Origin: Spirochaetaceae bacterium
GTDB lineage: Bacteria; Spirochaetota; Spirochaetia; Treponematales; Breznakiellaceae
Direction: 5' to 3'
Length of the DNA stretch: 12,255 bases
Assembly (NCBI GenBank): GCA_031280115.1
Contig: JAITHF010000139.1
Location: 1 to 12,255, forward strand
Shown here: one piece after another, positions 967-12,255 of the stretch
How the letters are laid out: every line of letters starts with the position of its first letter
Position numbering within the stretch: position 1 is the stretch's first letter
Made by a program: the position numbers and the translations under genes
Notes under the pieces: model-generated
Database searches by the model: none
What the model was told of the DNA's origin: nothing
The model's input: the letters and a program-made list of their open reading frames with translations, nothing else

Positions 967-1197
967 TTTTTTTGCTAGCAAAGTGAGTTTGTTTGCCAGC
1001 AAAATAAGTTTTTTTGCTAGCAAAATAAGTTTATTTGCCAGCAAAATAAAGTTCTTTGCCAGCAAAATAAGTTTATTTGCCAGCAAAATAAGTTTGTTTG
1101 CTAGCAAAATAAGTTTATTTGCCAGCAAAATAAGTTTATTTGCCAGCAAAATAAGTTTATTTGCCAGCAAAATAAGTTTATTTGCCAGCAAAATAAA
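967..1197 (+). repeat. Tandem array 1, eleven 21-bp units
   Basis: Eleven head-to-tail units of exactly 21 bp, built around TTTGCCAGCAAA or the perfect palindrome TTTGCTAGCAAA, with AT-rich spacers such as ATAAGTTTA. The first unit (967-987) is degenerate and the last (1177-1197) ends in CAAAATAAA. Because 21 bp is seven codons, frames stay open on both strands (SLFASKI repeated on plus, LILLANK on minus). There is no ribosome binding site next to any start, so it is read as a DNA repeat rather than a gene. Spacers are not unique, so this is not a CRISPR. Confidence 0.95.
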
Positions 1198-1345
1198 CTA
1201 TCCTGTCCCCGCATAAATCATTGTGTTATAACAAATTATCGGCGCTTCGCGCCTCTTTGAAGAGATGTGGAGGGTCATAGACCCTCCACGCCACCCATAA
1301 AGGCTTCCTGCGCCGCGCCCTTCCGCCGGCGGCTCCGGCGGGCGT
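1198..1345 (+). repeat. Inter-array scaffold between arrays 1 and 2
   Basis: It begins with CTATCCTGTCCCC and ATAAATCATTGT, the same right flank found after arrays 2 and 3. Three consecutive hairpins follow: GGCGC-TTC-GCGCC near 1243, a CTCTT/AAGAG dyad, and GTGGAGGGTC-ATA-GACCCTCCAC (1267-1289). The segment GGCTTCCTGCGCCGCGCCC is the inverse of module B. The GC-rich CCGCCGGCGG/CTCCGGCGG stretch leads into array 2. Confidence 0.85.
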
Positions 1346-1513
1346 TTTGTTGGAACCAACCGAACCTTTGTTGGAACCAACCGAACTCTTGTTGGAACCA
1401 ACCGAACCTTTGTTGGAACCAACCGAACCTTTGTTGGAACCAACCAGCCTTTTGTTTGATCCAACAGAACTCATATTTGTTCCAACCAGCCTTTTGTTTG
1501 CCAGCAAAATAAA
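1346..1513 (+). repeat. Tandem array 2, eight 21-bp units
   Basis: Eight units of exactly 21 bp start at 1346, 1367, 1388, 1409, 1430, 1451, 1472 and 1493. The first five carry GTTGGAACCAAC, a dyad with a 2-bp centre. Units six and seven are degenerate but keep the length. The last unit is not of this type: it is a perfect array-1 unit with TTTGCCAGCAAAATAAA, directly followed by the shared right flank. Open frames encode CWNQPNL-type repeats on plus, with no start signal. Confidence 0.95.
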
Positions 1514-1662
1514 CTATCCTGTCCCCAGATAAATCATTGTTTTATAATGACTTACCGGCGCTTCGCGCCTCTTTTAAAAGTTTTTGGGGGAACCAGTTCC
1601 CCCAAACCCCCAACCAACGGCTTCCTGCCTCGCGCCCTTCCGCCTGCGGCTCCGGCGGACGT
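1514..1662 (+). repeat. Inter-array scaffold between arrays 2 and 3
   Basis: Same order as the scaffold at 1198-1345: CTATCCTGTCCCC, ATAAATCATTGT, GGCGC-TTC-GCGCC. The third hairpin is replaced by a different one of the same position and length, TTTGGGGGAA-CCAG-TTCCCCCAAA (1583-1606). It then runs through the inverse of module B (GGCTTCCTGCCTCGCGCCC) into CTCCGGCGGACG before array 3. Confidence 0.85.
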
Positions 1663-1788
1663 TATTTTGGCGCCGCGGAAACTTTATTCGGGGTCAAAAA
1701 CAACTTATTCGGGAGCCCGAATAACTTATTCGGGGTCAAAAACAACTTATTCGGGGGCCCGAACAACTTATTCGGGATACAAAATAAA
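1663..1788 (+). repeat. Tandem array 3, six 21-bp units
   Basis: A degenerate unit at 1663-1683 is followed by five units at 1684, 1705, 1726, 1747 and 1768. Two unit types alternate: TTCGGGGTCAAAAAC and TTCGGG(A/G)GCCCGAA, the latter a strong dyad. The pattern is therefore a 42-bp dimer. The last unit ends in CAAAATAAA like those of arrays 1 and 2. Plus-strand frames read FGVKNNL and FGSPNNL, again without a convincing start. Confidence 0.92.
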
Positions 1789-2017
1789 CTATCCTGTCCC
1801 CAGATAAATCATTGTTTTATAATGACTTACCGGCGCTTCGCGCCTCTTTTAAGAGATGTGGAGGGTCATAGACCCTCCACGCCACCCATAAAGGCGACTT
1901 GTGCAGCGCCGCTAACGCCATCGAAGCGCTCTGAGGCGCCGCTTCTGGGTTGTGACTAAAATTGCGAACCCTCTCGCCGCGAGAAGCACTTAAAACAGCC
2001 TTCGGCTGCGCAGGGGG
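1789..2017 (-). repeat. Shared right flank and composite element copy 2 (C-B-A)
   Basis: CTATCCTGTCCCC and ATAAATCATTGT form the shared right flank. After them comes an inverted copy of the composite element: GGCGC-TTC-GCGCC near 1832, GTGGAGGGTC-ATA-GACCCTCCAC (1858-1880), module B in reverse, then module A in reverse ending in GCAGGGGG at 2017. The first base of the A palindrome directly abuts the stop codon (2020-2018) of the nucleoside kinase. With copy 1 at 687-936 it forms long inverted repeats around arrays 1-3. Confidence 0.85.
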
Positions 2018-3694
2018 CTAGTATTTGAATTCGCTCTCGCCGATGAACTCCCTCAAAATGCTCTGCCCGGGCACATACTGCGGCGGTATGGGGGCAAAGT
2101 TCTCAAGAAACGAACTGAGCCGCGCCGCTTCAGCGTATTCGGCGCTGCCGGGTTTCACAGAACGAAGGATCGGGTCAGCGTAAAACTTCAGCACCGCAAG
2201 CTCGTAACTCAGCGCCGAGTTGAACGCGAAGTCCGCGCCGTTCTGAAAGGGGAAAATATACTTCCATTCGCCCCGCTGGACGCTGGGCCACATCTTGATC
2301 GTCTCCGCGGCGCCTACGGCCCGGAACTGGTAATCCCGCACAAGGCGGCGCAAAAGCCGGTTGTCAGTGGTGGGAATACGGTTGTGGTCGTCAAGATTAA
2401 GCTGGGTGAGGGCGGAAACATAGAGCTTGAACGCGGACTCTTTTGGGATGTCTTGGATGAGCGCGTCATTGAGGCCGTGAATACCCTCCACAATGAGCAT
2501 GCTCCGGCTCCCAAGGCGTATGGTCTTGCCCCCTTCCCGCCGCCTGCCGGTCTTAAAGTCGTAAACAGGAAGGGTTGCCTCCCGCCCCTTGAAGAGCGAG
2601 GCAAGCTGCTGGTTGAAATAGGGGACATCCAGCGCGGAAAGGCACTCATAGTCCGGCTCGCCTTTCTCGTCCCGGGGCGTTTTGTCAGAGTTCACATAGT
2701 AATTGTCCAAACTCACCGCTATAGGCTCTATGCCCATGACTTTAAGCTCTATAGAAAGCCGCTTGGCCGTGGTGGTCTTGCCGGAACTTGAGGGCCCTGC
2801 GATAAGCACCACCTTGAGGGCGCCTTGGCGCTCGCTTATCTTGTCCGCGATATGCCCGATGGTTTTCGATTGAAACGCTTCGGCAACCTGTATATACGCT
2901 TTAACCGCCCGCTCCCGTACCAGGCGGTTAAGGTGGCCTGCCGCTTGAACCCCCTGATCCCTGCTCCATTTCTTGTGTTCGTTGTACACTGCGAAGATTT
3001 TGGGGCTGTCCTCAAAGGGCTCCATCTTGTGCATCCCCCCGGCTCCGGGGAAGCAGAGGAGCAGGCCGTCCTGATACGCCGCCACGTCGAACACCTTGAG
3101 AAAGCCCGTGCGCGGAACCAAAGGCTGCACGTAGAGGTCGGTAAAGCCGCCGCACTGGTTGACCTTGACCGCAGAGCCGCCGCGCTCGTCCAAAAGAAGT
3201 TTCGTGTCGGTCTGGCTGTTACGCTCAAAAAGCGCAAGCGCTTGGGCGTAGGCCATATACCGGTAGTTTATAGGGAGGTCCTGCGCCGCAAGCCCGCCCA
3301 TCTTGTCTTTAAGGCTCCGGGCGTCTTCCGCGCTCGGGGCTTTGCCGTCGGCAAACGTATAGTAATAGGTATTGCCCAAAGAATGGCCCACATAGAGGCG
3401 CCGGTCAGGGAACAGGTCTTTTGAGGCTATCGCAAGAAGGTACGCAAGGGACCTGCGGTAGATCATAACCCCTTCAGGGGAAAAGAGCGCCACAGGCTCA
3501 AGGGCCGAGTCTATCTCAAGGCGCGCGGAAAGCGGAAGGATTTCGTTGTTCGCCTTCACCGCCGCAAGGCCCCCCTCAGCCGGCGCCAAACGGGGCGCGA
3601 ACGCGCTAAAGGGCGTGCCGAAAGGGCAGGTAAGGGCGCCGCCGCCGTTGGCAAACGTTACGGTTATATCGTTCATATCGTTTATATCGTTCAT
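2018..3694 (-). CDS. Nucleoside (uridine-type) kinase with TGS and ThrRS-like N-terminal domains
   Basis: A protein of about 558 residues. Residues about 10-70 look like a TGS domain. Residues about 78-260 resemble the second additional domain of threonyl-tRNA synthetase (the segment around HSLGNTYYYTF). Residues from about 290 form a uridine kinase/phosphoribulokinase P-loop domain with Walker A GPSSSGKT near 300-307, DNYYVNSD, the PVYDF motif and LIVEGIHGLND. The family phosphorylates nucleosides in the cytoplasm; the exact substrate cannot be read here. Two in-frame starts exist: GTG at 3700 lies only 2 bases from AAGGAG, while ATG at 3694 has a normal 8-base gap and is chosen. The N-terminus repeats NDI/NDM because of a 9-bp repeat. 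It starts 38 bp after accA ends and is probably the last operon gene. Its stop codon abuts a repeat element. Confidence 0.88.
   Translation of the reverse strand: MNDINDMNDITVTFANGGGALTCPFGTPFSAFAPRLAPAEGGLAAVKANNEILPLSARLEIDSALEPVALFSPEGVMIYRRSLAYLLAIASKDLFPDRRLYVGHSLGNTYYYTFADGKAPSAEDARSLKDKMGGLAAQDLPINYRYMAYAQALALFERNSQTDTKLLLDERGGSAVKVNQCGGFTDLYVQPLVPRTGFLKVFDVAAYQDGLLLCFPGAGGMHKMEPFEDSPKIFAVYNEHKKWSRDQGVQAAGHLNRLVRERAVKAYIQVAEAFQSKTIGHIADKISERQGALKVVLIAGPSSSGKTTTAKRLSIELKVMGIEPIAVSLDNYYVNSDKTPRDEKGEPDYECLSALDVPYFNQQLASLFKGREATLPVYDFKTGRRREGGKTIRLGSRSMLIVEGIHGLNDALIQDIPKESAFKLYVSALTQLNLDDHNRIPTTDNRLLRRLVRDYQFRAVGAAETIKMWPSVQRGEWKYIFPFQNGADFAFNSALSYELAVLKFYADPILRSVKPGSAEYAEAARLSSFLENFAPIPPQYVPGQSILREFIGESEFKY
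3665..3694 (-). repeat. 9-bp in-frame repeat at kinase N-terminus
   Basis: AACGATATA/AACGATATG occurs three times in a row right after the start codon, coding for the Asn-Asp-Ile/Met triplets. Copy-number change would lengthen the N-terminus without shifting the frame. Confidence 0.8.
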
Positions 3695-3702
3695 AATCAC
3701 TG

Positions 3703-3708
3703 CTCCTT
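3703..3708 (-). promoter_or_regulatory. Ribosome binding site AAGGAG of the nucleoside kinase
   Basis: AAGGAG lies 8 bases before the ATG at 3694 and 2 bases before the GTG at 3700. The spacing favours the ATG. Just upstream is CCCCGGGG, a short palindrome in the 38-bp accA-kinase gap. No terminator is seen in the gap. Confidence 0.7.
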
Positions 3709-3732
3709 TTTTATATGCCCCGGGGTTTCGCT

Positions 3733-4557
3733 CTAGGGAGCGGGGCTTGTTCCGCTAGGCCCGCCCCCGCTGTCAGAGAAAACCCCGATAGAGCGGAACT
3801 TCTGGTACCGTTTCTGGAGAAGGGCGTCAATATCAATGTGCGAAAGCCGGGCAATGGTGCTGAGGAGATAGGCTTTAAGGCGCTCCGCCGTGTCAATCAC
3901 CCCCAGTTCCGGTATGATAGCGTCGCATATACCGAAATCCCGGACCTCTTCGGCGCGTATCTTCATAAGCCGGGCCGCCTCGATTTCCCTTGACCCGTCT
4001 TTCCACAGAATAGACGCGAACCCTCTGGGGGAAATAATCGAGAACACCGCGTTTTCCAGCATAGCAAGCTCGTCGCAGACCCCCAGGGCAAGGGCGCCGC
4101 CGGACCCGCCCTCTCCCAGGACCACCGAGATTACGGGTGTTCGCAAGTTCATAAACGCCATGAGGCTGCGGGCTATGGCTTCGCTCTGCCCCCGCTCTTC
4201 GGCGCCGACCCCGCAGAACGCGCCGGGGGTGTCAATAAAGGCGATAACCGGCCTATGAAACTTCTCCGCCTGCCGCGCAAGGCGCAGAGCTTTGCGGTAG
4301 CCTTCAGGGTGGGGCATGGCGCAGTTCGTGCGCTCCAGTTCTTCCACCGTGCGGGGCCGGGCCTGGGCCAGAACCGTAACCGGCGTGTCTTCCAGCATGC
4401 CGATACCGCCAAGCACCGCAGGGTCGTCCCCGTAGGCCCGGTCCCCGCTCAATTCGGTAAACTCGCTCACAATGGCCGGAAGGTAATCATACACCGACGC
4501 TTTTTTGCCAAGGCCCCGCAGGAGCGAAAGCCGCTCTTCAAGAGATAACCGGGGCAT
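3733..4557 (-). CDS. accA: Acetyl-CoA carboxylase carboxyltransferase subunit alpha
   Basis: A 274-residue protein with the AccA crotonase fold. It forms the carboxyltransferase with AccD, moving the carboxyl group from carboxybiotin to acetyl-CoA to make malonyl-CoA for fatty-acid synthesis. Visible family motifs: ELSGDRAYGDDPAVLGGI near 35-52, MPHPEGYRKALRL at 81-93, FIDTPGAFCGVGAEERGQSE at 107-126, the glycine-rich GEGGSGGALA at 148-157 (oxyanion loop) and ISPRGFASILWKD at 175-187. It is shorter than the roughly 317-residue E. coli protein, mainly at the N-terminus, as in many non-enterobacterial AccA. The C-terminal tail is Gly/Ser/Pro-rich. Its ATG overlaps the accD stop (TAATG), so translation is probably coupled and the two subunits made in equal amounts. 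A kinase gene follows. Confidence 0.95.
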   Translation of the reverse strand: MPRLSLEERLSLLRGLGKKASVYDYLPAIVSEFTELSGDRAYGDDPAVLGGIGMLEDTPVTVLAQARPRTVEELERTNCAMPHPEGYRKALRLARQAEKFHRPVIAFIDTPGAFCGVGAEERGQSEAIARSLMAFMNLRTPVISVVLGEGGSGGALALGVCDELAMLENAVFSIISPRGFASILWKDGSREIEAARLMKIRAEEVRDFGICDAIIPELGVIDTAERLKAYLLSTIARLSHIDIDALLQKRYQKFRSIGVFSDSGGGPSGTSPAP

Positions 4558-5339
4558 TAAGGGTTCCTCCTTTGATACCCGTGCATACGGATAAGGCGGG
4601 CAAGGACGCTCCGCTGGTTGTGCCGCGGCACGATAAGGTCAACAAAGCCCTTTTCCCGGACGAACTCGGCGGTCTGGAAGTTTTCGGGCAGCCGGGCGCC
4701 CAGGGTGTCTTGAATGACCCGCTTGCCGGCGAAGCCGATGAGCGCCCCCGGTTCGGCCATGATAATGTCCCCCAAAGAGGCGAAAGACGCGGCAACCCCG
4801 CCTGTGGTGGGGTCGGTCAGCACGGCTATATAGAGGGCGCCGGCCTCGCTGTGGCGGGCTGCGGCGCCGGCGGTTTTGGCCATCTGCATAAGGGAGAAGA
4901 TGCCTTCCTGCATTCTGGCCCCGCCGGACGCGGTGAACAGCACTACCGGCAGTTTTTGTTCCGCGCCGCGCTCGAAGGCTCTGGTTATCTTTTCGCCTGC
5001 CGCGCTTCCCATGCTTCCCATCATAAAGGCGCTTTCCATGACGCCTATAATGACCGGATAGCCCAGTATGGCGGCGCTGCCGGTTATTACCGCTTCATTC
5101 GCGCCGGTTTTTTCTTGGAGCTGCCGGATTTTTTCTTCATAGCCGGGGAAGTTAAGGGGGTTTTGGGATACCAGCCCTTCATCGAAGGCCGCGAAGGTTT
5201 CCCGGTCGGCGATGAAGCCGATACGTTCTTTCCATGATAGTCTGGCGTGATACCCGCAGGCGCCGCAGACGCTGCGGTTTGCGGCAAAGGTATCAGCCGG
5301 CGTGGTTCCCCCGCAGCGGGGGCAGATAAAATCAGTCAT
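4557..5339 (-). CDS. accD: Acetyl-CoA carboxylase carboxyltransferase subunit beta
   Basis: A 260-residue protein. The N-terminal zinc ribbon is complete: C6-x2-C9 and C25-x2-C28. The carboxyltransferase core shows GSMGSAAGEKI at about 108-118, SGGARMQEG at 138-146, GGVAASFASLGD at 180-191 and GFAGKRVI at 202-209. With AccA it makes malonyl-CoA in the cytoplasm. Biotin carboxylase and BCCP genes are not in the window. The start at 5339 is the only good ATG before the zinc ribbon. Its ribosome binding site is weak: only GGTAAAAAATT precedes it. It is the first gene of the accD-accA-kinase operon. Only 51 bp separate its start from repeat DNA at 5391, so the promoter is either in those 51 bp or inside the repeat; no clear hexamers were found. 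Confidence 0.96.
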   Translation of the reverse strand: MTDFICPRCGGTTPADTFAANRSVCGACGYHARLSWKERIGFIADRETFAAFDEGLVSQNPLNFPGYEEKIRQLQEKTGANEAVITGSAAILGYPVIIGVMESAFMMGSMGSAAGEKITRAFERGAEQKLPVVLFTASGGARMQEGIFSLMQMAKTAGAAARHSEAGALYIAVLTDPTTGGVAASFASLGDIIMAEPGALIGFAGKRVIQDTLGARLPENFQTAEFVREKGFVDLIVPRHNQRSVLARLIRMHGYQRRNP

Positions 5340-5390
5340 AATTTTTTACCCATCAATAAGTTTCAAGATACCGCCAAACCCAAAACAAAG

Positions 5391-5643
5391 CAACCCCCTG
5401 CGGGCAGCCGGAGGCTGTTTTACGTGCTTCTTGCGGCGAGCGGGTTTGCACGTTTAGTCACCCCCTGCGGGGGATTCAGGTGCTTCTTGCGGCGAGAGGG
5501 TTCGCAATTTTAGTCACAACCCAGAAGCGGCGCCTCAGCGGGCTTTGATAACGCACGGGCGCAGCGCAGGAAGCCTTTAGGGGAGGTTTGGAGGGTCTAT
5601 GACCCTCCAAATTCTCTTAAAAGAGGCGCGAAAGCGCCGATAA
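5391..5643 (+). repeat. Composite palindromic element A-A-B-C, copy 3
   Basis: The first A module (5391-5458) has its opening palindrome replaced by CCCCCTGCGGGCAGCCGGAGGCTG. The second (5459-5515) is near-identical to 688-743. Module B (5519-5579) contains GCGCCTCAGCGGGC and GGGCGCAGCGCAGGAAGCC. Module C has the 11-bp hairpin TTTGGAGGGTC-TAT-GACCCTCCAAA (5587-5611) and GGCGC-GAAA-GCGCC near 5625-5638, followed by GATAAAAAA. This is the cleanest full copy. The A end faces accD and the C end faces array 4. Confidence 0.87.
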
Positions 5644-5685
5644 AAAAGCGCACGCGAAGCGCAGCGCGTAAAAAACGCAGGGGGG
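5644..5685. repeat. GCGC-rich tail after module C
   Basis: AAGCGCACGCGAAGCGCAGCGC matches the GCGCAAGCGCAGCGCAGCGC tail that follows module C at 9351, 11855 and 12130. It is probably an optional end segment of the same element. Confidence 0.6.
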
Positions 5686-5714
5686 TTGATAAACCATAAG
5701 TTAGGTGGTATTGT
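5686..5714 (+). promoter_or_regulatory. Candidate sigma-70 promoter
   Basis: TTGATA (5686-5691) and TATTGT (5709-5714) are separated by 17 bp. The first matches 5 of 6 and the second 4 of 6 consensus bases. It would transcribe rightward through the structured segment 5746-5871. No open reading frame with a good start follows closely. Confidence 0.25.
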
Positions 5715-5871
5715 TATGATATTATGTTGAAACGTAGCAGTACCGCGTTTTCGTTAGGGCGCAGTTTGGCCGAAAACGACAAACGACAAACGACAAACGA
5801 CAAACGACAAACAATTATGGGGGCGGTTTTGGCTTTGTCAAGCCCTCTCCGCCGGAATCCGGTCATTTTTT
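5715..5871 (+). ncRNA. Possible small structured RNA
   Basis: Downstream of the candidate promoter is a perfect 8-bp stem CGTTTTCG (5746-5753) / CGAAAACG (5771-5778) with a 17-base loop. Five CGACAAA repeats follow, then a nested hairpin: outer GGCGG (5822-5826)/CCGCC (5849-5853), a symmetric 4x4 internal loop, inner GGCTT (5831-5835)/AAGCC (5840-5844) with loop TGTC. CCGG-AAT-CCGG (5852-5862) followed by TCA and six T could be an alternative terminator stem that competes with the outer stem. No known RNA family is recognised. Confidence 0.25.
5777..5811 (+). repeat. Five tandem CGACAAA heptamers
   Basis: Five perfect 7-bp copies occur in a row. Seven is one third of the 21-bp unit found in the larger arrays. 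Confidence 0.92.
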
Positions 5872-5885
5872 AATATATTTCCCAG

Positions 5886-5975
5886 CCTTTTTTTCTTTTT
5901 TTTCTTTTCTTTCTTTCTATATATATTCCCGTTTCGCTTTCTTTACTTTTTCCGCTCCTTCCGGGCTCATCAGAA
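5886..5975. other. Pyrimidine-rich tract with an AT stretch
   Basis: 33 uninterrupted C/T bases (5886-5918), then ATATATAT, then a second mostly C/T stretch to about 5975. The base bias is unlike anything else in the window. Mirror-like T/C tracts of this length can form triplex (H-DNA) structures; that is inference. The minus strand codes for Lys/Glu-rich residues here, without a supported gene. Confidence 0.75.
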
Positions 5976-6100
5976 AGGCGGCGCAAGGCGTGTTTGGGGC
6001 AGGCTCAACAGGCAGGCCGGAGCATACAGCACTATCCCGCAGCAAACCGTATGCTATGCTTGAATATACCAACAAACCGCAGACAGAAAAGTCTGAATTT

Positions 6101-6352
6101 GACTCAAATCTATTCAGATCCGACTCAAATCTATTAAGATCCGACTCAAATCTATTAAGATCCGACTCAAATCTATTCAGATCCGACTCAAATCTATTCA
6201 GATCTGACTCAAATCTATTCAGATCTGACTCAAATCTATTCAGATCCGACTCAAATCTATTCAGATCCGACTCAAATCTATTCAGATCCGACTCAAATCT
6301 ATTCAGATCCGACTCAAATCTATTCAGATCCGAGCCGGATCTATTCAAATCT
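6101..6352 (+). repeat. Tandem array 4, twelve 21-bp units
   Basis: Twelve units of exactly 21 bp begin at 6101; the last (6332-6352) is degenerate. The unit combines GACTCAAATC and TATTCAGATC with C or T at the last base. Units with T contain the perfect palindrome TCAGATCTGA. A leader TATACCAACAAA (6065-6076) is shared with array 1. Plus-strand frames read DSNLFRS and minus-strand frames DLNRFES, open far beyond the array on both strands (5990-6517 plus, 5917-6348 minus). The possible starts are GTG and TTG with no ribosome binding site, so these are listed as repeat rather than genes. An ATG at 6053 is in frame with DSNLFRS but also lacks a ribosome binding site. Confidence 0.95.
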
Positions 6353-6457
6353 GAGCCGGATTTTCCCGCTCCGGCGGCGCTTCAAACCAGCGGCGCCGCG
6401 CTTTTTACGGTCTCTGCCCCGCCTTTAAGACGGGTGCATATATTTTTAAGGATTTTT
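6353..6457. other. Gap between array 4 and the small gene
   Basis: A half-unit (GAGCCGGAT) ends the array. GCTCCGGCGGCGC resembles the CTCCGGCGG segment next to arrays 2 and 3. Two copies of ATTTTTAAGGA occur back to back at 6442-6462, the second merging into the ribosome binding site of the next gene. TATATT at 6439-6444 could be a -10 element, but no -35 is seen. Confidence 0.5.
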
Positions 6458-6465
6458 AAGGAGGT
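6458..6465 (+). promoter_or_regulatory. Strong ribosome binding site AAGGAGGT
   Basis: A near-perfect Shine-Dalgarno sequence 4 bases (counted from GGAGG) before the ATG at 6469. It is one of the strongest in the window and the main reason to call the small gene that follows. Confidence 0.75.
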
Positions 6466-6468
6466 ACT

Positions 6469-6714
6469 ATGTATGTACAACTATCCACGATGGCTTCCCC
6501 CCGCTCGGAAGTCTTGAACGCCCGGGTCCGCGCGGCCTTTGAGCGGCTTATTGCGTGTATGCAGGACGTGAAAGACCGGTATTTCAAGACCCCGCCGCTT
6601 CTCGAAGAGGACTTAGAGGACTTTTTTATTGGCGCTTTCGCGCCTCTTTGGGAAGAATTTGGGGGAACCAGTTCCCCCAAACCCCCGCTAAAGGCGTCAT
6701 GCTTTGCGCCATAA
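6469..6714 (+). CDS. Small hypothetical protein with repeat-derived C-terminus
   Basis: An 81-residue frame directly behind a strong ribosome binding site. Residues 1-54 look like an ordinary soluble protein, partly helical (VLNARVRAAFERLIACMQDV) and ending in an acidic EEDLEDFF stretch. From residue 55 (position 6631) to the stop, the DNA is a copy of module C plus part of B in reverse: GGCGC-TTTC-GCGCC and the 10-bp hairpin TTTGGGGGAA-CCAG-TTCCCCCAAA (6658-6681). It translates as GGTSSPKPPLKAS. The same peptide appears in repeat translations at 1547 and 12121. The original C-terminus was probably replaced or extended by the repeat. No family is recognised. It may be a remnant of a longer gene. 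Confidence 0.55.
   Translation: MYVQLSTMASPRSEVLNARVRAAFERLIACMQDVKDRYFKTPPLLEEDLEDFFIGAFAPLWEEFGGTSSPKPPLKASCFAP
6631..6712 (-). repeat. Composite element copy 4 (C-B), inside a coding frame
   Basis: Modules C and part of B, inverted relative to copy 3 at 5391. Together the two copies frame array 4. The hairpin stem of 10 bp (6658-6667 with 6672-6681) is identical to those at 1583 and 7036. It lies wholly inside the open frame 6469-6714 and keeps that frame open. Confidence 0.8.
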
Positions 6715-6719
6715 CGAAT

Positions 6720-6996
6720 GCGGTGCTTTAGGCGGTTTTTTTATGGGGGGTTTGGGGGTTCTTGCCCCCCCCATAGCCTCTTAAAAGCGCCGAAAGGCGC
6801 AACAAGTCAAGCTGTTGGGGGGTGTTTAGTATGAGCGCGGTGCGGGTTTTTTATGGGGGGTTTGGGGGGCTTTTTTACCGGCGCTTCATGTTTCGCGTAT
6901 TCTTTTGCGAACTCCGCGTAAGGGAACAGCCTTCGGCTGCACCCATAATGCCTTAAAAGCGCCGAAAGGCGCAACAAGTCAATCTATTGGGGGTTT
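6720..6996 (+). repeat. Tandemly duplicated hairpin-rich segment
   Basis: Two diverged copies of one unit (about 6720-6830 and 6838-6996). Each starts with GGTTTTTTTATGGGGGG and TTTGGGGG, and ends with TTAAAAGCGCC-GAAA-GGCGC followed by AACAAGTCAA. The second copy carries an insertion at 6870-6939 that also occurs inverted at 11764-11833. No coding frame is supported here. Confidence 0.75.
6870..6939 (-). repeat. 70-bp segment, inverted partner of 11764-11833
   Basis: Read on the minus strand it matches 11764-11833 with about three mismatches in 70 bases. Both copies keep one frame open that reads LFPYAEFAKEYAKHEA. This looks like a fragment of a coding sequence carried within the repeats. 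The parent gene is not in the window. Confidence 0.75.
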
Positions 6997-7000
6997 TTTA

Positions 7001-7091
7001 TCGGCGCTGCGCTTCGCTTGCGCTTTTTAAGAGTTTTTGGGGGAACCAGTTCCCCCAAACCCCCAATCAACGGCTTCTAGCGCCGCGCCCC
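7001..7091 (-). repeat. Composite element copy 5 (C-B) upstream of the chemoreceptor
   Basis: GGCGC-rich start, TTTTTAAGAG, the hairpin TTTGGGGGAA-CCAG-TTCCCCCAAA (7036-7059), then CAACGGCTTCTAGCGCC, matching 1583-1640. It ends about 40 bp before the chemoreceptor start codon. Module A is missing. Confidence 0.8.
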
Positions 7092-7131
7092 CTTTCGCCA
7101 TCAAAACGCGATGAGATAAAAGGAAAACTTT

Positions 7132-9285
7132 ATGGGTAAAAAAATGACGTTCGCGGCGCTGTTTACCGCGATCGGGTTAAGCATGATGGCGTGTATCACT
7201 ATCGCCCTCTCAACGCTGTTCTTTATCAGCCTCCGGGGGATGGCCTACCGCCAGATAAAGTCCCATGTGCTTGAAACCGCCCTGCGCCTTGAAGATTCAG
7301 TGGCAGCAATGCTGAAAGACCACGCAGGGCTCGTGCAGGATACGGCGGAGGCGGTTGCGTCCCTTCACGCCGTAGCCGGCGAAACCCCCCATAACGCCAT
7401 ACAGGATTTCCTCATCCGTACGATGAAACGCCTCCCTGATGTGTCGTACCTCTACTACGCAAGCCTGATACCCTGGGGCAAAGAGGGGAGTTTCTTTATT
7501 ATTAACGACGGGTGGACCCCGCCGCCGGACTACGACCAGACCGATCGGGACTGGTTCAAAGCGGCAAAGGATGCCCGGGGGAACGTGGGCTACTCAGAGC
7601 CTTACCGGGAAGCCGCCTCCCAAGTGATCTCAGTATCCCTGTCCATACTTGTCAAAGACAGCGCCGGCAGGGAACTGGGAATTGTGGGCGCTGAAATAGT
7701 GATTGCCGCCCTGGGGGAGGCCCTCAATACGCTGCGCACCAATTCGCAGCGCCTCTACCTTATAGACCGCGCAGGCAAATATATCACCCACCCGGACGAA
7801 AAGATGGTGATGGACGGGGACTTCTTTGCGGAACACGGCCTCAATGACCATAAGAGCGCGGCCCTTTCTGAGCGCTCCTTCTCCGCTGAGACAAAGGAAG
7901 TGCTGCTCCATTCGGCGCGTATACCTGAGACGGACTGGATTCTGGTGTCCGTCATCCCCCGGTCAGTGATTTTCGCTGAGGTGAACCGCCTTCTTGCCCT
8001 CTCCCTTGTTATAATCGGGGCCCTTCTTGCGGCTGCGGCGGCAGTATTGGCGGTTATCACCCATAAAATGAGCAGGCCCCTGCGGGATATTACCGCGGCG
8101 CTTGCGGAGATAGCCCGGGAATGGGACCTTACCAAGCGCCTTGACGGGGAACAGGCGGCGCAGGTGGCTGAGTTTTCCCGCATAACCGACGTGTTCAACA
8201 TGACCTTTGAGAATATGGGCCGCCTTATCGGAACCATAAAGAGCCAGAGCCGGTCCCTCACCCATACGGGCATAGAGCTTTCAACCAACATGATTGAGAC
8301 CGCGGCGGCCATAACCGAGGTGAACGCGAACATTCAGAGCATGAAAGTCCAGATAGAGCGCCAGGCCGGGGAATCGGCGGAGGCCAAGCGCTCTGTTGAC
8401 CGGATGATGCGTAATATAGCCAATCTGTACGGGCATATTGATAAACAGGCAGGCAAAGTTTCCCAGTCCGCCGCGTCTGTGGAGGAGATGTTTGCCAGCA
8501 TTGAGGCCGTGGCGGAGACGCTGGACAGGAACGCGGGGAACGTGGCGGCCCTGCGGGAGTCCTCTGAGACGGGCAAGGCCGGCCTCCAGAGCGTGTTTTC
8601 TATTTTTCAGGAAATCGCCGAAGAATCCGAGGGGCTTTTACAGATAAACGCGGTGATGAACAATATCGCCAGCCAGACGAACCTTCTTTCTATGAATGCG
8701 GCGATTGAGGCGGCCCATGCCGGAGGCGCGGGCAAGGGCTTCGCGGTGGTTGCCGATGAGATACGCAAACTGGCGGAGTCTTCGGCAAAGCAGTCCAAAA
8801 CCACGGCGTTTATGCTGAAGAAAATTAAGGCCGCGATTGACACGCTGACCCGCTCCATAGCGGAGGTGCTGGACCGGTTTGCGAGCATTGACGGCGATGT
8901 ACGGGCCGTTTCCGAACAGGAAGCGGGTATCCGCTCGGCAATGGCGGAGCAGCATCAAGGGAGCAGGCAGCTCTTAGAGGCTGTTGAGGAACTGCGGTCG
9001 ATTACTGACATGGTAAAGCGGGAGTCCGCGGGCATCGCCGAAGAGAGCCGGGAGATAGGGGTCAAAAGCGCGGCGCTTGAGCGGATAAGCGCGGAGGTGT
9101 TTCACGGCATGGACGAGATGGCCGCCGGCGCCGGCGAGATAAATACCGCCGTGGTCCGGGTGAATGAGATAAGCGGGGCCAACCGGGACAGCATTACCGC
9201 CCTGAGCAATGAGATAGCCAAGTTCAAAGCAGCCGAACCCCCTGCGGGGGATTCAATGGCGCCTCAGCGGAATTCGAGAGCGTGA
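7132..9285 (+). CDS. Methyl-accepting chemotaxis protein, dCache-HAMP type
   Basis: A 717-residue transmembrane chemoreceptor. TM1 is at about 8-35. The periplasmic sensor at about 45-275 looks like a dCache_1 domain (the [18 protein letters not shown] segment at 128-145 and [11 protein letters not shown] at 212-222). TM2 is at about 287-311, HAMP at 312-365, then a long cytoplasmic coiled coil. The hairpin tip with [20 protein letters not shown] at 511-530 and [16 protein letters not shown] at 534-549 binds CheA/CheW. The ligand cannot be told; dCache domains often bind amino acids or other small molecules. The ATG at 7132 follows AAAGGAAAA. There is no C-terminal CheR-binding pentapeptide. 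Residues 702-717 are encoded by a copy of the repeat element (from 9235), so the native C-terminus seems replaced. Repeat copies in opposite orientation flank the gene. No other che gene is nearby. Confidence 0.95.
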
Positions 9286-9380
9286 GCGGCGCGGGGCATG
9301 AAGCCTTTAGCGGGGGTTTGGGGGAACTGGTTCCCCCAAATCTCTTTAAAAAGCGCAAGCGCAGCGCAGCGCCCTTTCGC
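9236..9380 (+). repeat. Composite element copy 6 (A-B-C), overlapping the chemoreceptor 3' end
   Basis: CCCCCTGCGGGGGATTCA (start of A) fuses to GGCGCCTCAGCGGAATTCGA (module B) within the last 16 codons of the chemoreceptor. It continues past the stop into AAGCCTTTAGCGGGGG and the hairpin TTTGGGGGAA-CTGG-TTCCCCCAAA (9317-9340), then a GCGCAAGCGCAGCGCAGCGC tail. The hairpin could act as the gene's terminator, although only CTCTTTAAAAA follows it. The A module is shortened. Confidence 0.85.
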
Positions 9381-9394
9381 CTGCGCTGCATGGG

Positions 9395-9423
9395 TAGACC
9401 TTATGCGGTTTTTTTAATATACT
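9395..9423 (+). promoter_or_regulatory. Candidate promoter of the EcsC-like gene
   Basis: TAGACC (9395-9400) and TATACT (9418-9423) lie 17 bp apart, about 25 bp before the start codon. The -10 matches 5 of 6 consensus bases and the -35 matches 4 of 6. The region between is T-rich. It lies just outside the repeat element. Confidence 0.4.
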
Positions 9424-9447
9424 ACAAACAGGCGTAAGGAGGAATGG

Positions 9448-10188
9448 ATGGCGGATACGACCGAAGTGGTAGGAGTATGGTACAATGTGCTGGGAGCGGC
9501 ATTGCAGATTCCCGGGGCGCGGGTAAACCGCGCTGAATTTCTTGTAAAAGAATTCGGCAAATACTGCAATCCGGCAACTATAGAAAAGATTTTCTCGAAA
9601 GGCACCGCAGCCGCAGGCGTGGAAGCGGCGCTCATGGACAAAGTAGCGGAGGATACTATCAACCTCCACGCGGGAATAGCCGCGTCCTTGTCGTTTGCCG
9701 CAGGAATACCCGGGGGGCTTGCAATGCTGGCAACCGTTCCGGCGGATATTGCCCAATACTATTATCATGTCATAGCAGCGGCTCAAAAACTCGCGTATAC
9801 CTATGGTTTTTTGGAAATGCCTCTGGTTGAGGATGATTTTAAGTCATTGATAACCCTGCTTCTTGGGGTTATGGCGGATATAGAGGACGCGAATACTACT
9901 GTAACCGAACTCTATGCCAGCCAGGTATCAAGAGAAATGGCGGCTATGGCAATGGGAAAAGCCCTTAATAAGGCGGCGCTGAAAACCGCTTTGGCCCTTG
10001 CATACAGGCTGACCGGAAAATCCGTCTTCAAATCCATTTGGAAAGCCGTGCCGGTTCTAGGCGGCGTGGTATCCGGCGGGATAACCCTGTGCACCTTCCT
10101 GCCTATGTGCAATAACTTAAAAACAAGGCTCCATAGAAGCGTAGAAGCCGCAAAAAAAATGCCTTTGCTGCCAAGCGTGGCGCCCTAG
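9448..10188 (+). CDS. EcsC-like family protein
   Basis: A 246-residue protein with the look of the EcsC family. A Gly/Pro-rich turn followed by a helix, AAGIPGGLAMLATVPADIAQ at 84-103, leads to a helical stretch ending KLAYTYGF (114-121). A second Gly-rich segment, KAVPVLGGVVSGG at 199-211, is followed by a hydrophobic stretch. Bacillus subtilis EcsC sits beside the EcsAB ABC exporter; its biochemical role is unsettled and no transporter gene is near here. The protein probably associates with the membrane through the two hydrophobic regions (about 75-100 and 200-220). The start is the second of two overlapping ATGs (9444 and 9448): only 9448 is in frame, and AAGGAGG lies 5 bases before it. 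It ends 11 bp from the end of the converging dehydrogenase gene. Confidence 0.72.
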   Translation: MADTTEVVGVWYNVLGAALQIPGARVNRAEFLVKEFGKYCNPATIEKIFSKGTAAAGVEAALMDKVAEDTINLHAGIAASLSFAAGIPGGLAMLATVPADIAQYYYHVIAAAQKLAYTYGFLEMPLVEDDFKSLITLLLGVMADIEDANTTVTELYASQVSREMAAMAMGKALNKAALKTALALAYRLTGKSVFKSIWKAVPVLGGVVSGGITLCTFLPMCNNLKTRLHRSVEAAKKMPLLPSVAP

Positions 10189-10199
10189 CCCCGGGCCGC

Positions 10200-11477
10200 C
10201 TAGATTTCAGGGGCGTGTTCCAAGAGATAATCTTCGGCTTCTTTATTCCACAACCCGTTGTAAGACGCGCAGATGTCCCCCAAACGCCGGAAGAACGGAT
10301 CGTCCCTGCCTTTTTCCGCAAAGCCGGCAATCGCGCTCAGGCCCAGGCGCTTGTGGGTATAGATGAGTTTCTTGCCCCCGGGGATTGCGTCCAGATCAAG
10401 CGTGGCCTGAGCCGCCGCGTCAAGGCCGCCTATGTGGGTGACCATGAAAACCGGATTGATAACCCCGCCGGCCATGAGGGACAGGGCCTCTTTCATGTCG
10501 TCAGTGCTGCCGCCGGAGGTGCCTACGATATGGTGCCCCTCGTAATGGACGTTATAAAAGTTTAAGGAACCGGAGAACTCCGGGTCCGTGGGGCCTGCGA
10601 AGAAGTTCAGGCACCCGCCGCGCCCTAAAAGCCGCCCCCCCAGCTCAAGAACCGGCTTGACCGGCGCGAACACGAACACATCGTCGTACAGGGCGCCGCG
10701 GTTACGGTCTCTCAGGGCCCCCACAGGATCGGAGAGGGCTTTTGTGTTTACATACACAAGCTCCACCCCGTTTTCCCGGGCGTCTTCCGCCGTAAGGAGG
10801 CTTGCGGCGCGGGACAGGCGGCTCTCGTCTATGTCCGCAACCACCAGGCGGGAGGGTTTGCGGGGGTTGTGCAGGGCGTAATCAACGGCGCAAAGCCCCA
10901 TAGGCCCGGCGCCGGCAAGGAAGAGGAGGGACCCGCCCTCAGCAATGCCCATAACGTGCCGGTACGAGCCCGCTTCCGTGTGGTACTGGGCGTGGAAAGC
11001 CCCGGCAATACAGGATACCGGCTCGGCCAGGGACCCAAGGTAAAAATTATCCCCTGTATAGAGGAGGAGGCAGTTCATCTCCATCACTTCAGGGGGAATG
11101 ATAATATACGTGGCGTCCCCGCCTATGTATTGGTACGAATAGCCCGGGGCCCAGAGCGTGGCCTGCCCCTGCTGGTCCGGGTAATTTAGCGCCGGCTGGA
11201 TAGTAAACTTGGCGCCCGCTTGAAAGGCCCCTGCCCAGGCGGCGCCGACCTGTTCAATGACCCCGCAGAACTCGTGGCCGATAACCGCCGGCTTTTCAGC
11301 GAGCGTACCCCTGACCCGTTTGTGCCGCTCCCCCTGCATTGCCAGTTTATGGCTGGACATACAAATCGAATCAGAGACCACCCGCGCAAGGATTTCGTCA
11401 TCTTGCAAAGGGGGAAGATCGAATTCGTCAAGCCTCAAATCCCGCGCCCCGTGGATGCGGACCGCTTTTGTTTTCAT
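10200..11477 (-). CDS. Zinc-type medium-chain dehydrogenase, sorbose-1-phosphate reductase-like
   Basis: A protein of 425 residues in the medium-chain alcohol dehydrogenase superfamily. Catalytic zinc ligands are visible: C39 (in DSICMSSHK), H68-E69 in GHEFCG and probably E152 in AEPVSC. The cofactor fold has G189-A-G-P-M-G194 and an acidic residue after strand two (VVADIDESR, D215), suggesting NAD(H). The structural four-cysteine zinc lobe is absent. Length and overall pattern resemble proteins annotated as L-sorbose-1-phosphate reductase, so a sugar-phosphate ketone/alcohol substrate is inferred, not shown. The frame opens upstream to 11528, but GGAGG at 11487-11491 points to ATG 11477 (9-base gap) or the adjacent GTG 11480 (6-base gap). 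It converges with the EcsC-like gene. No sugar transporter or kinase is nearby. Confidence 0.85.
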   Translation of the reverse strand: MKTKAVRIHGARDLRLDEFDLPPLQDDEILARVVSDSICMSSHKLAMQGERHKRVRGTLAEKPAVIGHEFCGVIEQVGAAWAGAFQAGAKFTIQPALNYPDQQGQATLWAPGYSYQYIGGDATYIIIPPEVMEMNCLLLYTGDNFYLGSLAEPVSCIAGAFHAQYHTEAGSYRHVMGIAEGGSLLFLAGAGPMGLCAVDYALHNPRKPSRLVVADIDESRLSRAASLLTAEDARENGVELVYVNTKALSDPVGALRDRNRGALYDDVFVFAPVKPVLELGGRLLGRGGCLNFFAGPTDPEFSGSLNFYNVHYEGHHIVGTSGGSTDDMKEALSLMAGGVINPVFMVTHIGGLDAAAQATLDLDAIPGGKKLIYTHKRLGLSAIAGFAEKGRDDPFFRRLGDICASYNGLWNKEAEDYLLEHAPEI

Positions 11478-11486
11478 CACAGTATC

Positions 11487-11491
11487 CCTCC
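11487..11491 (-). promoter_or_regulatory. Ribosome binding site and leader hairpin of the dehydrogenase gene
   Basis: GGAGG before ATG 11477/GTG 11480 rules out the longer frame that starts at 11528. Just upstream, GCGAT-TTTTT-ATCGC (11505-11519) forms a small hairpin in the leader, next to a sequence resembling a worn remnant of module C (TTATCGCGCCTCTCAT). Confidence 0.6.
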
Positions 11492-11553
11492 TATAGATGA
11501 GCCTGCGATTTTTTATCGCGCCTCTCATACTACCATGAACCTCCCGCCTCCTT

Positions 11554-11714
11554 CAACCCCCTTCGGGCAGCCTGCGGCTGTTTTACGTGCTTCTTGTAGC
11601 GAGAGGGTTTGCGGGTTTAGTCACAACCCCGAAAGATGCGCCTCAGCGGAATTCGATGGCGCACGGGCGCAGCGCAGGAAGCCTTTAGCGGGGGTTTGGG
11701 GCAGCCGAAGGCTG
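11554..11714 (+). repeat. Composite element copy 7 (A-B)
   Basis: Module A with CCCCCTTCGGGCAGCC and GGCTGTTTTACGTGCTTCTTG, close to the first A of copy 3 at 5391. Then module B with GCGCCTCAGCGGAATTCGA (as in the chemoreceptor end) and GGGCGCAGCGCAGGAAGCC. It switches after GGGGTTTGGGG into CAGCCGAAGGCTG instead of the usual hairpin. Its A end lies about 77 bp upstream of the dehydrogenase start codon. Confidence 0.82.
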
Positions 11715-11763
11715 TTTCAGCAGCCGTAGTTTGCGCTATGAGCCGCAAAACATAAAGCGCCGG
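11715..11763. other. Short non-repeat spacer
   Basis: It holds only GCAGCC/GGCTG palindromic words and no supported gene or signal. Confidence 0.4.
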
Positions 11764-11833
11764 CAGCCAAAGGCTGTTCCCTTACGCGGAGTTCGCAAAA
11801 GAATACGCGAAACATGAAGCGCTGATAAAAAAG
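11764..11833 (+). repeat. 70-bp segment, inverted partner of 6870-6939
   Basis: Nearly identical to the reverse complement of 6870-6939 (about three mismatches). The shared frame reads LFPYAEFAKEYAKHEA, then LIKK here and PVKK in the other copy. It lies between a composite element and array 5. Confidence 0.75.
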
Positions 11834-11892
11834 GCCCCCAAATTGCATTATAAAAGCGCAAGCGCAGCGCAGCGCTCGTAACCGAACAGAGC
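11834..11892 (+). repeat. Scaffold before array 5
   Basis: CCCCCAAATTGCATTATAA, the GCGCAAGCGCAGCGCAGCGC tail and CTCGTAACCGAACAGAGCGG. The same order recurs at 12107-12165, before array 6, with a few base changes. Confidence 0.85.
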
Positions 11893-12039
11893 GGGGTTTT
11901 CACGGCGGGGAGCGGTATCCGTGAGGCGCGGGGAGGTATCCGTGAGGCGGGGAGCGGTATCCGCAGGGCGCGGGGAGGTATCCGCAGGGCGCGGGGAGGT
12001 ATCCGCAGGGCGCGGGGAGGTATCCGCACGGCGCGGACG
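11893..12039 (-). repeat. Tandem array 5, seven 21-bp units
   Basis: A degenerate unit (11893-11913) and six units at 11914, 11935, 11956, 11977, 11998 and 12019. The unit combines GGTATCCGC or GGTATCCGT with AGGGCGCGGGGA, extremely GC-rich. CCGC-AGGGC-GCGG forms a short dyad. The flank order (CTTCATGCGCTGCACCC next to the array on the minus strand) shows that it is inverted relative to arrays 2 and 3. Minus-strand frames read RALRIPP; a start for them is not supported. Confidence 0.93.
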
Positions 12040-12165
12040 TAAGGGGGCAGGGCAGGCGGAAGGGTGCAGCGCATGAAGCCTTTAGCGGGGGTTTGGGGGA
12101 ACTGGTTCCCCCAAATTGCATTATAACAGCGCAAGCGAAGCGCAGCGCTCGTCACCGACCAGAGA
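12040..12165 (+). repeat. Scaffold between arrays 5 and 6
   Basis: GGGCAGGCGGAAGGGTGCAG and CATGAAGCCTTTAGCGGGGG (module B end), the hairpin TTTGGGGGAA-CTGG-TTCCCCCAAA (12092-12115), TTGCATTATAACAGCGC and CTCGTCACCGACCAGAGAGG. The left part matches 9294-9345 after the chemoreceptor. The right part matches 11836-11892. Confidence 0.87.
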
Positions 12166-12207
12166 GGGGCTTTCACGGCGCGGAGAGGTATCCGTGGGGC
12201 GCGGGGG
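12166..12207 (-). repeat. Array 6, two 21-bp units
   Basis: Two units of the array-5 type: one with CTTTCACGGCGCGG like the degenerate first unit of array 5, and one with GGTATCCGTGGGGCGCGG. It is the minimal form of an array, in the same flanking context as array 5. The sequence after it (12208-12255) is GC-rich, with no feature recognised before the window ends. Confidence 0.8.
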
Positions 12208-12255
12208 CGCACCTCTAACGCGGAAAGGCCGCCCCCTGCGGCACCGTATGTACCC

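Follow-up and report, generated by a model that had tools for sequence, protein, structure and literature searches.

A common 21-bp unit length in sequence-unrelated tandem arrays of a Spirochaetaceae genome

Introduction

The closest described counterpart of the arrays reported here is BrickBuilt, a miniature inverted-repeat transposable element (MITE) of Porphyromonas gingivalis. BrickBuilt is intergenic, is present in 19 copies in strain ATCC 33277 and carries an array of spacer-free 23-nt units, 1 to 22.8 per copy (PMC4596501). The present analysis concerns a 12,255-nt stretch of DNA from a Spirochaetaceae bacterium (contig JAITHF010000139.1; the window), in which tandem arrays of different sequence share one unit length, 21 bp. 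An earlier note on this DNA knew of no described family of this kind. That was too strong, since BrickBuilt is built alike: it has a leader and a tail, inverted-repeat ends and, at a fixed site, a tandem array of fixed-length units, there 23 nt long (PMC4596501). BrickBuilt is one 23-nt unit family, whereas this genome holds several sequence-unrelated 21-bp families, the comparison being one of unit length and not of sequence. It is also unlike BrickBuilt in having tens of copies per class, other 21-bp families in a congener and, in one class of arrays (class A), dyad cores that differ through compensated substitutions.

Satellites in general are few in most prokaryote species, according to a survey in which the non-coding satellite families of Leptospira interrogans have repeat lengths of 37, 46 and 69 nt (PMC6749651). 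Those satellites resemble the present arrays in belonging to a spirochaete, in being intergenic and in being scattered genome-wide; those listed in the survey share no single repeat length, unlike the arrays here. The main text of a paper on termite Breznakiellaceae, in the part available, makes no mention of tandem, intergenic or transposon and uses "repeat" once, in an unrelated sense (PMC13067680). Titles and the openings of abstracts yielded no account of 21-bp arrays in these spirochaetes.

Two further systems invite comparison. Iterons are phased arrays of binding sites, direct repeats about two helical turns apart that are read by a protein. The present arrays differ in occurring genome-wide and in lacking a constant sequence, and no replication gene or cognate protein has been shown for them. 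REPINs are short, palindromic, dispersed units that go with RAYT transposases, and to our knowledge they hold no 21-bp arrays. This genome likewise has short palindromic dispersed units and one RAYT-like gene match, but no such repeat was seen beside the gene, on its 5' side.

Results

A sharp excess of 21-bp periods in the sampled contigs

The window is contig C146 of a 1.84-Mb metagenome-assembled genome of 301 contigs (62% complete, 0.4% contamination). Tandem Repeats Finder (TRF) was run on 40 of these contigs, 218,402 bases in all: 20 contigs numbered 1 to 22, minus 5 and 19, which had given earlier flank matches, and every tenth contig from 25 to 215. At a score of at least 50, the two halves yielded 36 and 39 clusters. 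A 21-bp row was present in 32 of the 75, or 35 (17 and 18) if clusters with solely 63 or 84 bp are counted, while 22 was the best period once and 19, 20 and 23 never. The sharp 21-bp excess, which the earlier note had set as a check, is present in this genome and exceeds chance; the contrary outcome named beforehand, flanks of one kind holding widely varying periods, was not seen. When only clusters of 60 bp or more are taken, 23/32 of the non-coding-like ones (outside long open reading frames, ORFs) and 6/15 of those in ORF-like frames have a period of 21 or one of its multiples. The 32 arrays make up 2.3% of the sampled bases. As 13 of them run up to a contig end, single arrays may in places have been counted as two halves.

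Among relatives, where multiples of 21 were counted as period 21, the congener G003 had this period in 15 of 27 clusters (10 contigs, two picked for matches). At 60 bp or more the figures were 7/12 for its non-coding-like and 5/7 for its coding-like clusters. Its cores (AAAAGGTATACCTTTT, AAACGCTAGCGTTT, AACATCAATGTT) are mostly unlike those of the window, one being class A; the earlier statement that length is kept while sequence changes held in both genomes. Counts elsewhere were 3/11 in G001 (7 contigs), 4/9 in G004 (6 contigs), 0/1 in G005 (10 contigs, one picked for a match) and 0/1 in G002 (7 contigs). The wider family gave 13/51, many of two copies, with period 15 in eight clusters (38 contigs from 18 other genomes), and two order-level genomes gave 1/8. 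Arrays of at least three copies occur in G007, G012 and G013. G003 also has tandem repeats of its own of 84, 94 and 158 bp (L077, 8-281 and 493-732; L082, 3952-4277), two of which adjoin a 21-bp array. Arrays of 23 bp, the unit length of BrickBuilt, lie in G008, a member of another genus of the family (L119, 16966-17469; L139, 13103-13220); in one of them a 69-bp row scored best.

Window arrays fall into distinct families

Of six 21-bp arrays claimed for the window, TRF confirmed five. The sixth (12166-12207) was not called even at score 30 and is part of a second copy of the array-5 stretch. TRF placed array 1 at 966-1196 (11.0 units of 21 bp), array 2 at 1346-1470 (6.0 units, with a second row of 7.4 units at 1345-1500), array 3 at 1684-1784 (4.8 units, the 42-bp double unit scoring higher), array 4 at 6101-6351 (12.0 units) and array 5 at 11905-12036 (6.2 units). 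Direct counting of array 2 gave eight 21-mers at 1346-1513, as originally described, the last units being diverged; relative to the right flank, it is shifted by one base from the phase that most class-A arrays keep. TRF indel rates were 0% for arrays 1 and 4, 1% for arrays 3 and 5 and 2% for array 2 (7% in its longer row), so that "almost no indels" was a fair description. Because they share the right flank TATCCTGTCCCCNNATAAATCATT in alignment and all fit one unit formula, arrays 1 to 3 are one family, class A. The cores, which had been called unrelated throughout, are so among this group, array 4 (class B) and array 5, and not within the group. The features are as follows.

690 to 2017, no strand assigned: composite element of class A that holds three arrays; most of its length is matched by tens of similar stretches in the fetched contigs of the same genome
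967 to 1197, plus strand: array 1, class A, 11 units of 21 bp, consensus core TTTGCCAGCAAA (TRF, anchored units)
1199 to 1262, plus strand: class-A right flank (TATCCTGTCCCCNNATAAATCATT ... GGCGCTTCGCGCC), at least 40 own-genome copies (alignment)
1346 to 1513, plus strand: array 2, class A, 8 units, core GTTGGAACCAAC (TRF, direct count)
1515 to 1580, plus strand: class-A right flank, copy two (own-genome copies, alignment)
1684 to 1788, plus strand: array 3, class A, 5 units of two alternating variants (42-bp double unit), cores such as TTCGGGAGCCCGAA (TRF, anchored units)
1790 to 1855, plus strand: class-A right flank, copy three (own-genome copies, alignment)
5930 to 6100, plus strand: class-B left flank (38 own-genome matches)
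6101 to 6352, plus strand: array 4, class B, 12 units, consensus GACTCAAATCTATTCAGATCC (TRF)
11835 to 12039, plus strand: flank and array 5, GC-rich, about 6 units of GCGGGGAGGTATCCGCAGGGC (TRF, flank motifs)
12108 to 12223, plus strand: second copy of the array-5 stretch with at most 2 units (array 6), 85% identical to 11835-11950

The class-A flank has at least 40 copies in the genome (40 of 282 candidates scored), and the class-B left flank has 38 matches, the window included (40 of 59 candidates scored), with no match in five congeners. Array 5 and units like it form a GC-rich group with a looser definition. Eighteen of 37 own arrays (32 sampled and 5 from the window) carry none of six flank motifs, nine of them lying at contig ends; half of the arrays are therefore not assigned to a family. 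A flank search of 39 genomes matched the genome itself, G003 and G005 only. Outside the genome, the exact class-A flank pattern was found in one genome_contigs record, Spirochaetaceae bacterium isolate Pc512_bin84 (JAITHR010000226.1, 4,119 bases); with regard to a phage origin, it had no exact match in viral_contigs.

Arrays change mostly by whole units and mostly keep their phase

Taken modulo 21, the spacing of the left and right flanks in class A is 1 for 12/17 pairs spanning 1 to 17 units, and in 12/15 once two multi-array window spans are dropped. Class-B flank pairs leave remainder 10 in 4/4, with 4 to 16 units. In both classes, then, unit number shifts mostly in whole units. Two proteins predicted by the Joint Genome Institute (JGI) have the array-4 flanks with one and nine heptads fewer than the window, and come from other strains or other loci. 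Arrays with a common flank differ in their letters, and the minisatellite occupies a fixed site in a mostly fixed phase. Unit type switches while the 21-bp phase is kept in L024 (near 887) and in the class-B array of L187. In class A, flank identity is only a weak guide to the identity of the array (Spearman 0.13 with the core and 0.18 with the unit, over non-independent pairs of 38 arrays). Class-B units usually start with GA(C/G)TCA and vary in their second half, also between copies with a common flank (20 of 38 copies seen, some ending at contig ends). Both classes keep unit length and part of the unit and vary the remainder. Own arrays show 10 indel events per 573 mismatches, against 38 per 417 for nearest neighbours of the class-A flank (37 pairs, 47 copies; Fisher p 7e-7).

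Class-A units contain a covarying dyad

From 47 class-A flank sites, 37 consensus units were obtained; ten sites were dropped for too few similar in-phase units. G at position 7 and C at position 12 are present in 37/37 and A18 in 36/37, while position 9 is nearly free and positions 8, 10 and 11 are weakly biased. Single units do depart from G7 (12 changes) and C12 (10 changes) among 222 units. In the 35 distinct consensus units the pair 7-12 is always G-C, and pairs 4-15, 5-14, 6-13 and 8-11 covary, each with three Watson-Crick types (z 5.6 to 6.2, from column shuffles that ignore kinship). Pair 9-10 does not covary (p 0.22), nor do 3-16, 2-17 and 1-18. Within 31 class-A arrays (475 changes), positions 4-7 and 12-15 changed 4-16 times each and positions 8-11 changed 30-42 times each; paired changes at 8-11 comprised 24 double and 21 single.

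Symmetry was also scored in other arrays, leaving out those with fewer than three copies or a consensus that is not 21 nt long, one of G008 included. Perfect even-centred dyads (5/5 pairs) were found in 10/26 own arrays and in 7/12 from G003, a set in which some nearly repeat one another, and odd-centred ones in one own and one G003 array; shuffled units average 3.4 pairs. A first palindrome test gave p at or below 0.05 for 6/35 own, 8/15 G003, 0/3 G001 and 0/4 G004 arrays.

Class-A copies have a MITE-like form

Both class-A copies that were examined for their form are MITE-like, each being a long and imperfect inverted repeat. The window element (690-2017) is bounded by sharp edges of similar stretches near 690 and 2010, with fewer stretches over array 2. 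Its arms, 760-895 and 1859-1994, form an imperfect inverted repeat of 136 nt with 79% complementarity, and its end adjoins the stop codon of a uridine-kinase-like gene. L007, a one-unit copy, also lies where tens of similar stretches overlap, again with sharp edges. As DNA it is predicted to fold into a 324-nt hairpin (z -8.4) whose outermost bases, 1 and 324, are paired; the unit's dyad centre coincides exactly with the hairpin midpoint, 162.5, and the predicted fold has a four-base loop. Spacer-free units of fixed length at a fixed site between conserved leader and tail, as in BrickBuilt, were thus found, and inverted-repeat ends in class A only (L007 and the window arms).

Neither an autonomous partner nor a target duplication turned up, the partner search having covered Y1 genes only and duplications not having been searched. 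Y1_Tnp (RAYT-like) matches number 1 in the genome itself, 1 in G003, 8 in G001, 16 in G004 and 11 in G005. The contig with the own-genome match (L171, G000:C283) carries none of the genome's fetched repeats over 1.9 kb, which cover about 1.5 kb before the match and little more than 0.1 kb after it. A RAYT partner thus found no support, the repeats not lying beside the single Y1 match, whose 3' side is hardly covered. A CTCTGTCCC-type motif occurs near RAYT-like Y1 genes on this contig, on L172 (G003) and on L178 (G005); a TGTCCC-type motif close to three Y1 genes, traced through k-mer counts, yielded no convincing link.

Setting of the arrays

Pfam matches among the window genes comprise AccA, a carboxyl transferase domain, the uridine-kinase family, a methyl-accepting chemotaxis protein and a zinc-type alcohol dehydrogenase. 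The gene with the carboxyl transferase domain we take, from its position, to be accD. G005 keeps the order accD-accA-udk and has no arrays there; no alignment was obtained that would define a precise empty site. Pc512_bin108 is reported from the termite Prorhinotermes canalifrons (PMC11707648), and judged by kinship the window organism is likely a termite-gut spirochaete.

Small palindromic modules form mosaics around the window arrays. A CTTCCGCC module adjoins array 5 and likewise arrays 2 and 3. A 56-bp module (CCCCCTGCGGGGGATTCAGGTGCTTCTTGC...), tandem or single and intergenic, occurs at 689-807, 5391-5517 and 11554-11624. The heptamer AAACGAC forms pure tandems at 5774-5812, near the class-B element, and in other contigs of the genome (L035, 5499-5570; L064, 3172-3226).

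Discussion

The sharp unit length, the whole-unit changes and the symmetric class-A half-sites with a free centre are best fitted by whole-unit slippage with 21 bp kept by phased dimer binding to dyad sites, a leading but unproven explanation to which we give a probability of roughly 0.4. Units would be gained and lost through replication slippage or unequal exchange, which would homogenise each array while its letters drift. Class-A units may act as inverted half-sites, NNNG-4 bp-CNNN, bound side by side by a putative dimeric DNA-binding protein. A length of 21 bp (2 x 10.5) would set every dimer on one face of the helix, and so the period would be kept; this account of why 21 bp persists is the least sure step. 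Compensated changes would preserve the dyad as its letters change. The data suggest that spacing is more important than sequence in these arrays. Helical phasing, raised in the earlier note, agrees with class-A dyad half-sites recurring each 21 bp.

Several observations weigh against phased binding. Its weakest point is that no protein is known, none having been sought, and that many arrays lack dyads: 16/26 own arrays and all seven arrays scored in other genomes have no perfect one, and the first palindrome test gave p 0.06, 0.10, 1.0, 0.29 and 0.86 for the five window arrays, none at or below 0.05. A universal palindrome was rejected on these counts (0/5 and 0/7). A single protein would need to accept very different arms, the class-B GA(C/G)TCA piece hints at an odd-centred dyad, and a low rate of change is not confined to the class-A dyad arms, with 18 changes at position 18 and 12 at position 19. 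The class-B flank has 0 gaps among 145 differences in 20 copies, so indel scarcity is not special to arrays, and the case for an array-specific scarcity is weakened; TRF, moreover, may prefer indel-free arrays. The sharp 21-bp excess is absent from the wider-family sample. Finally, the single unit of L007 is the exact tip of its hairpin, as would also fit a hairpin-driven mechanism.

Selection need not be involved. Old 21-bp arrays in selfish MITE-like elements may turn over neutrally as minisatellites, by slippage or exchange of whole units, with length inherited, letters drifting and dyad symmetry being restored through template switching in a palindrome. Such turnover, aided by the position at the hairpin tip, does nearly as well as phased binding, and we regard it as a real possibility, tentatively held. 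Unit types that switch without loss of phase, the weak tie between class-A core and flank identity, the coincidence of dyad centre and hairpin midpoint in L007 and the equally ungapped class-B flanks all agree with it. Very deep descent would be needed, however, as class A, class B and most G003 families have no recognised common sequence or flank, and it is not obvious how template switching would hold G7 and C12 at 37/37 while positions 8-11 change. Another possible cause is a 21-nt ruler in the copying machinery itself, such as an enzyme that handles a fixed length at a hairpin tip and would turn any sequence into a 21-bp array. It would explain why cores without common sequence, both in several families here and in G003, are equally long. 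The exact hairpin tip of L007 and the 21-bp arrays elsewhere that have no perfect dyads would follow as well. This is decidedly unlikely: we know of no enzyme with such a ruler, the fixed G7 and C12 are left unexplained, and the single Y1 match has none of these repeats over its 1.9 kb, nearly all on the 5' side.

Readings that place the function in RNA or protein, or deny the arrays altogether, fare worse. Covariation of the class-A arms would be expected if transcribed arrays formed a small stem-loop per 21-nt unit, but the 8-11 covariation would leave a loop of 2 nt, which is too small, AT-rich units are expected to give weak stems, and all Rfam matches fell below gathering scores; tandem RNA hairpins are very unlikely. 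Less credible still is a coding role, to which the earlier note's remark that 21 bp is seven codons points. One class-A frame is indeed open in 34/35 consensus units (21 expected from shuffles), two other frames show a synonymous excess (130 seen, 107 expected; 122 seen, 107 expected), the coding-like clusters of G003 are mostly of period 21, and two JGI proteins resemble the array-4 ORF. Yet the mostly open frame is short of synonymous changes (97 seen, 118 expected), and new stops are most numerous in the two frames that have the excess (18 and 14). In the class-B flank 38/145 changes are synonymous, with 23% expected, and codon positions changed 28, 77 and 40 times, the second most. Some copies would be put out of frame by a flank distance with an unusual remainder, and of the genome's 21-bp clusters measuring 60 bp or more, 23/29 are located outside long ORFs. 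Though mixed in detail, the six-frame synonymous counts and the class-B flank gave no support to purifying selection on a heptapeptide, and a coding role is not borne out. We give least credence to an assembly artefact, in which a k-mer assembler would repeat its smallest word length. A common setting for that length is 21, the contig name of one relative has the k119 form and 13/32 own arrays reach contig ends, but units vary within arrays, array lengths and flanks are many and in the JGI proteins homologous flanks enclose the same heptads.

What sets this genome apart from a described element such as BrickBuilt, with its one unit family, is that several unrelated unit families, with others in a congener, share one exact length equal to two turns of B-DNA. 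Should a copying ruler or a hairpin-tip mechanism be the cause, the arrays would point to an unknown mode of DNA amplification. If the cause is selection on helical phase, they would be a natural test of how a protein reads spacing rather than sequence. It is a doubtful but conceivable extension that a clade of gut spirochaetes carries genome-wide, helically phased arrays of predicted binding sites, in which the geometry (21 bp, inverted half-sites) would be selected, the letters would be free to diversify and each array could have its own partner or identity; this would amount to a spacing code that does not depend on sequence.

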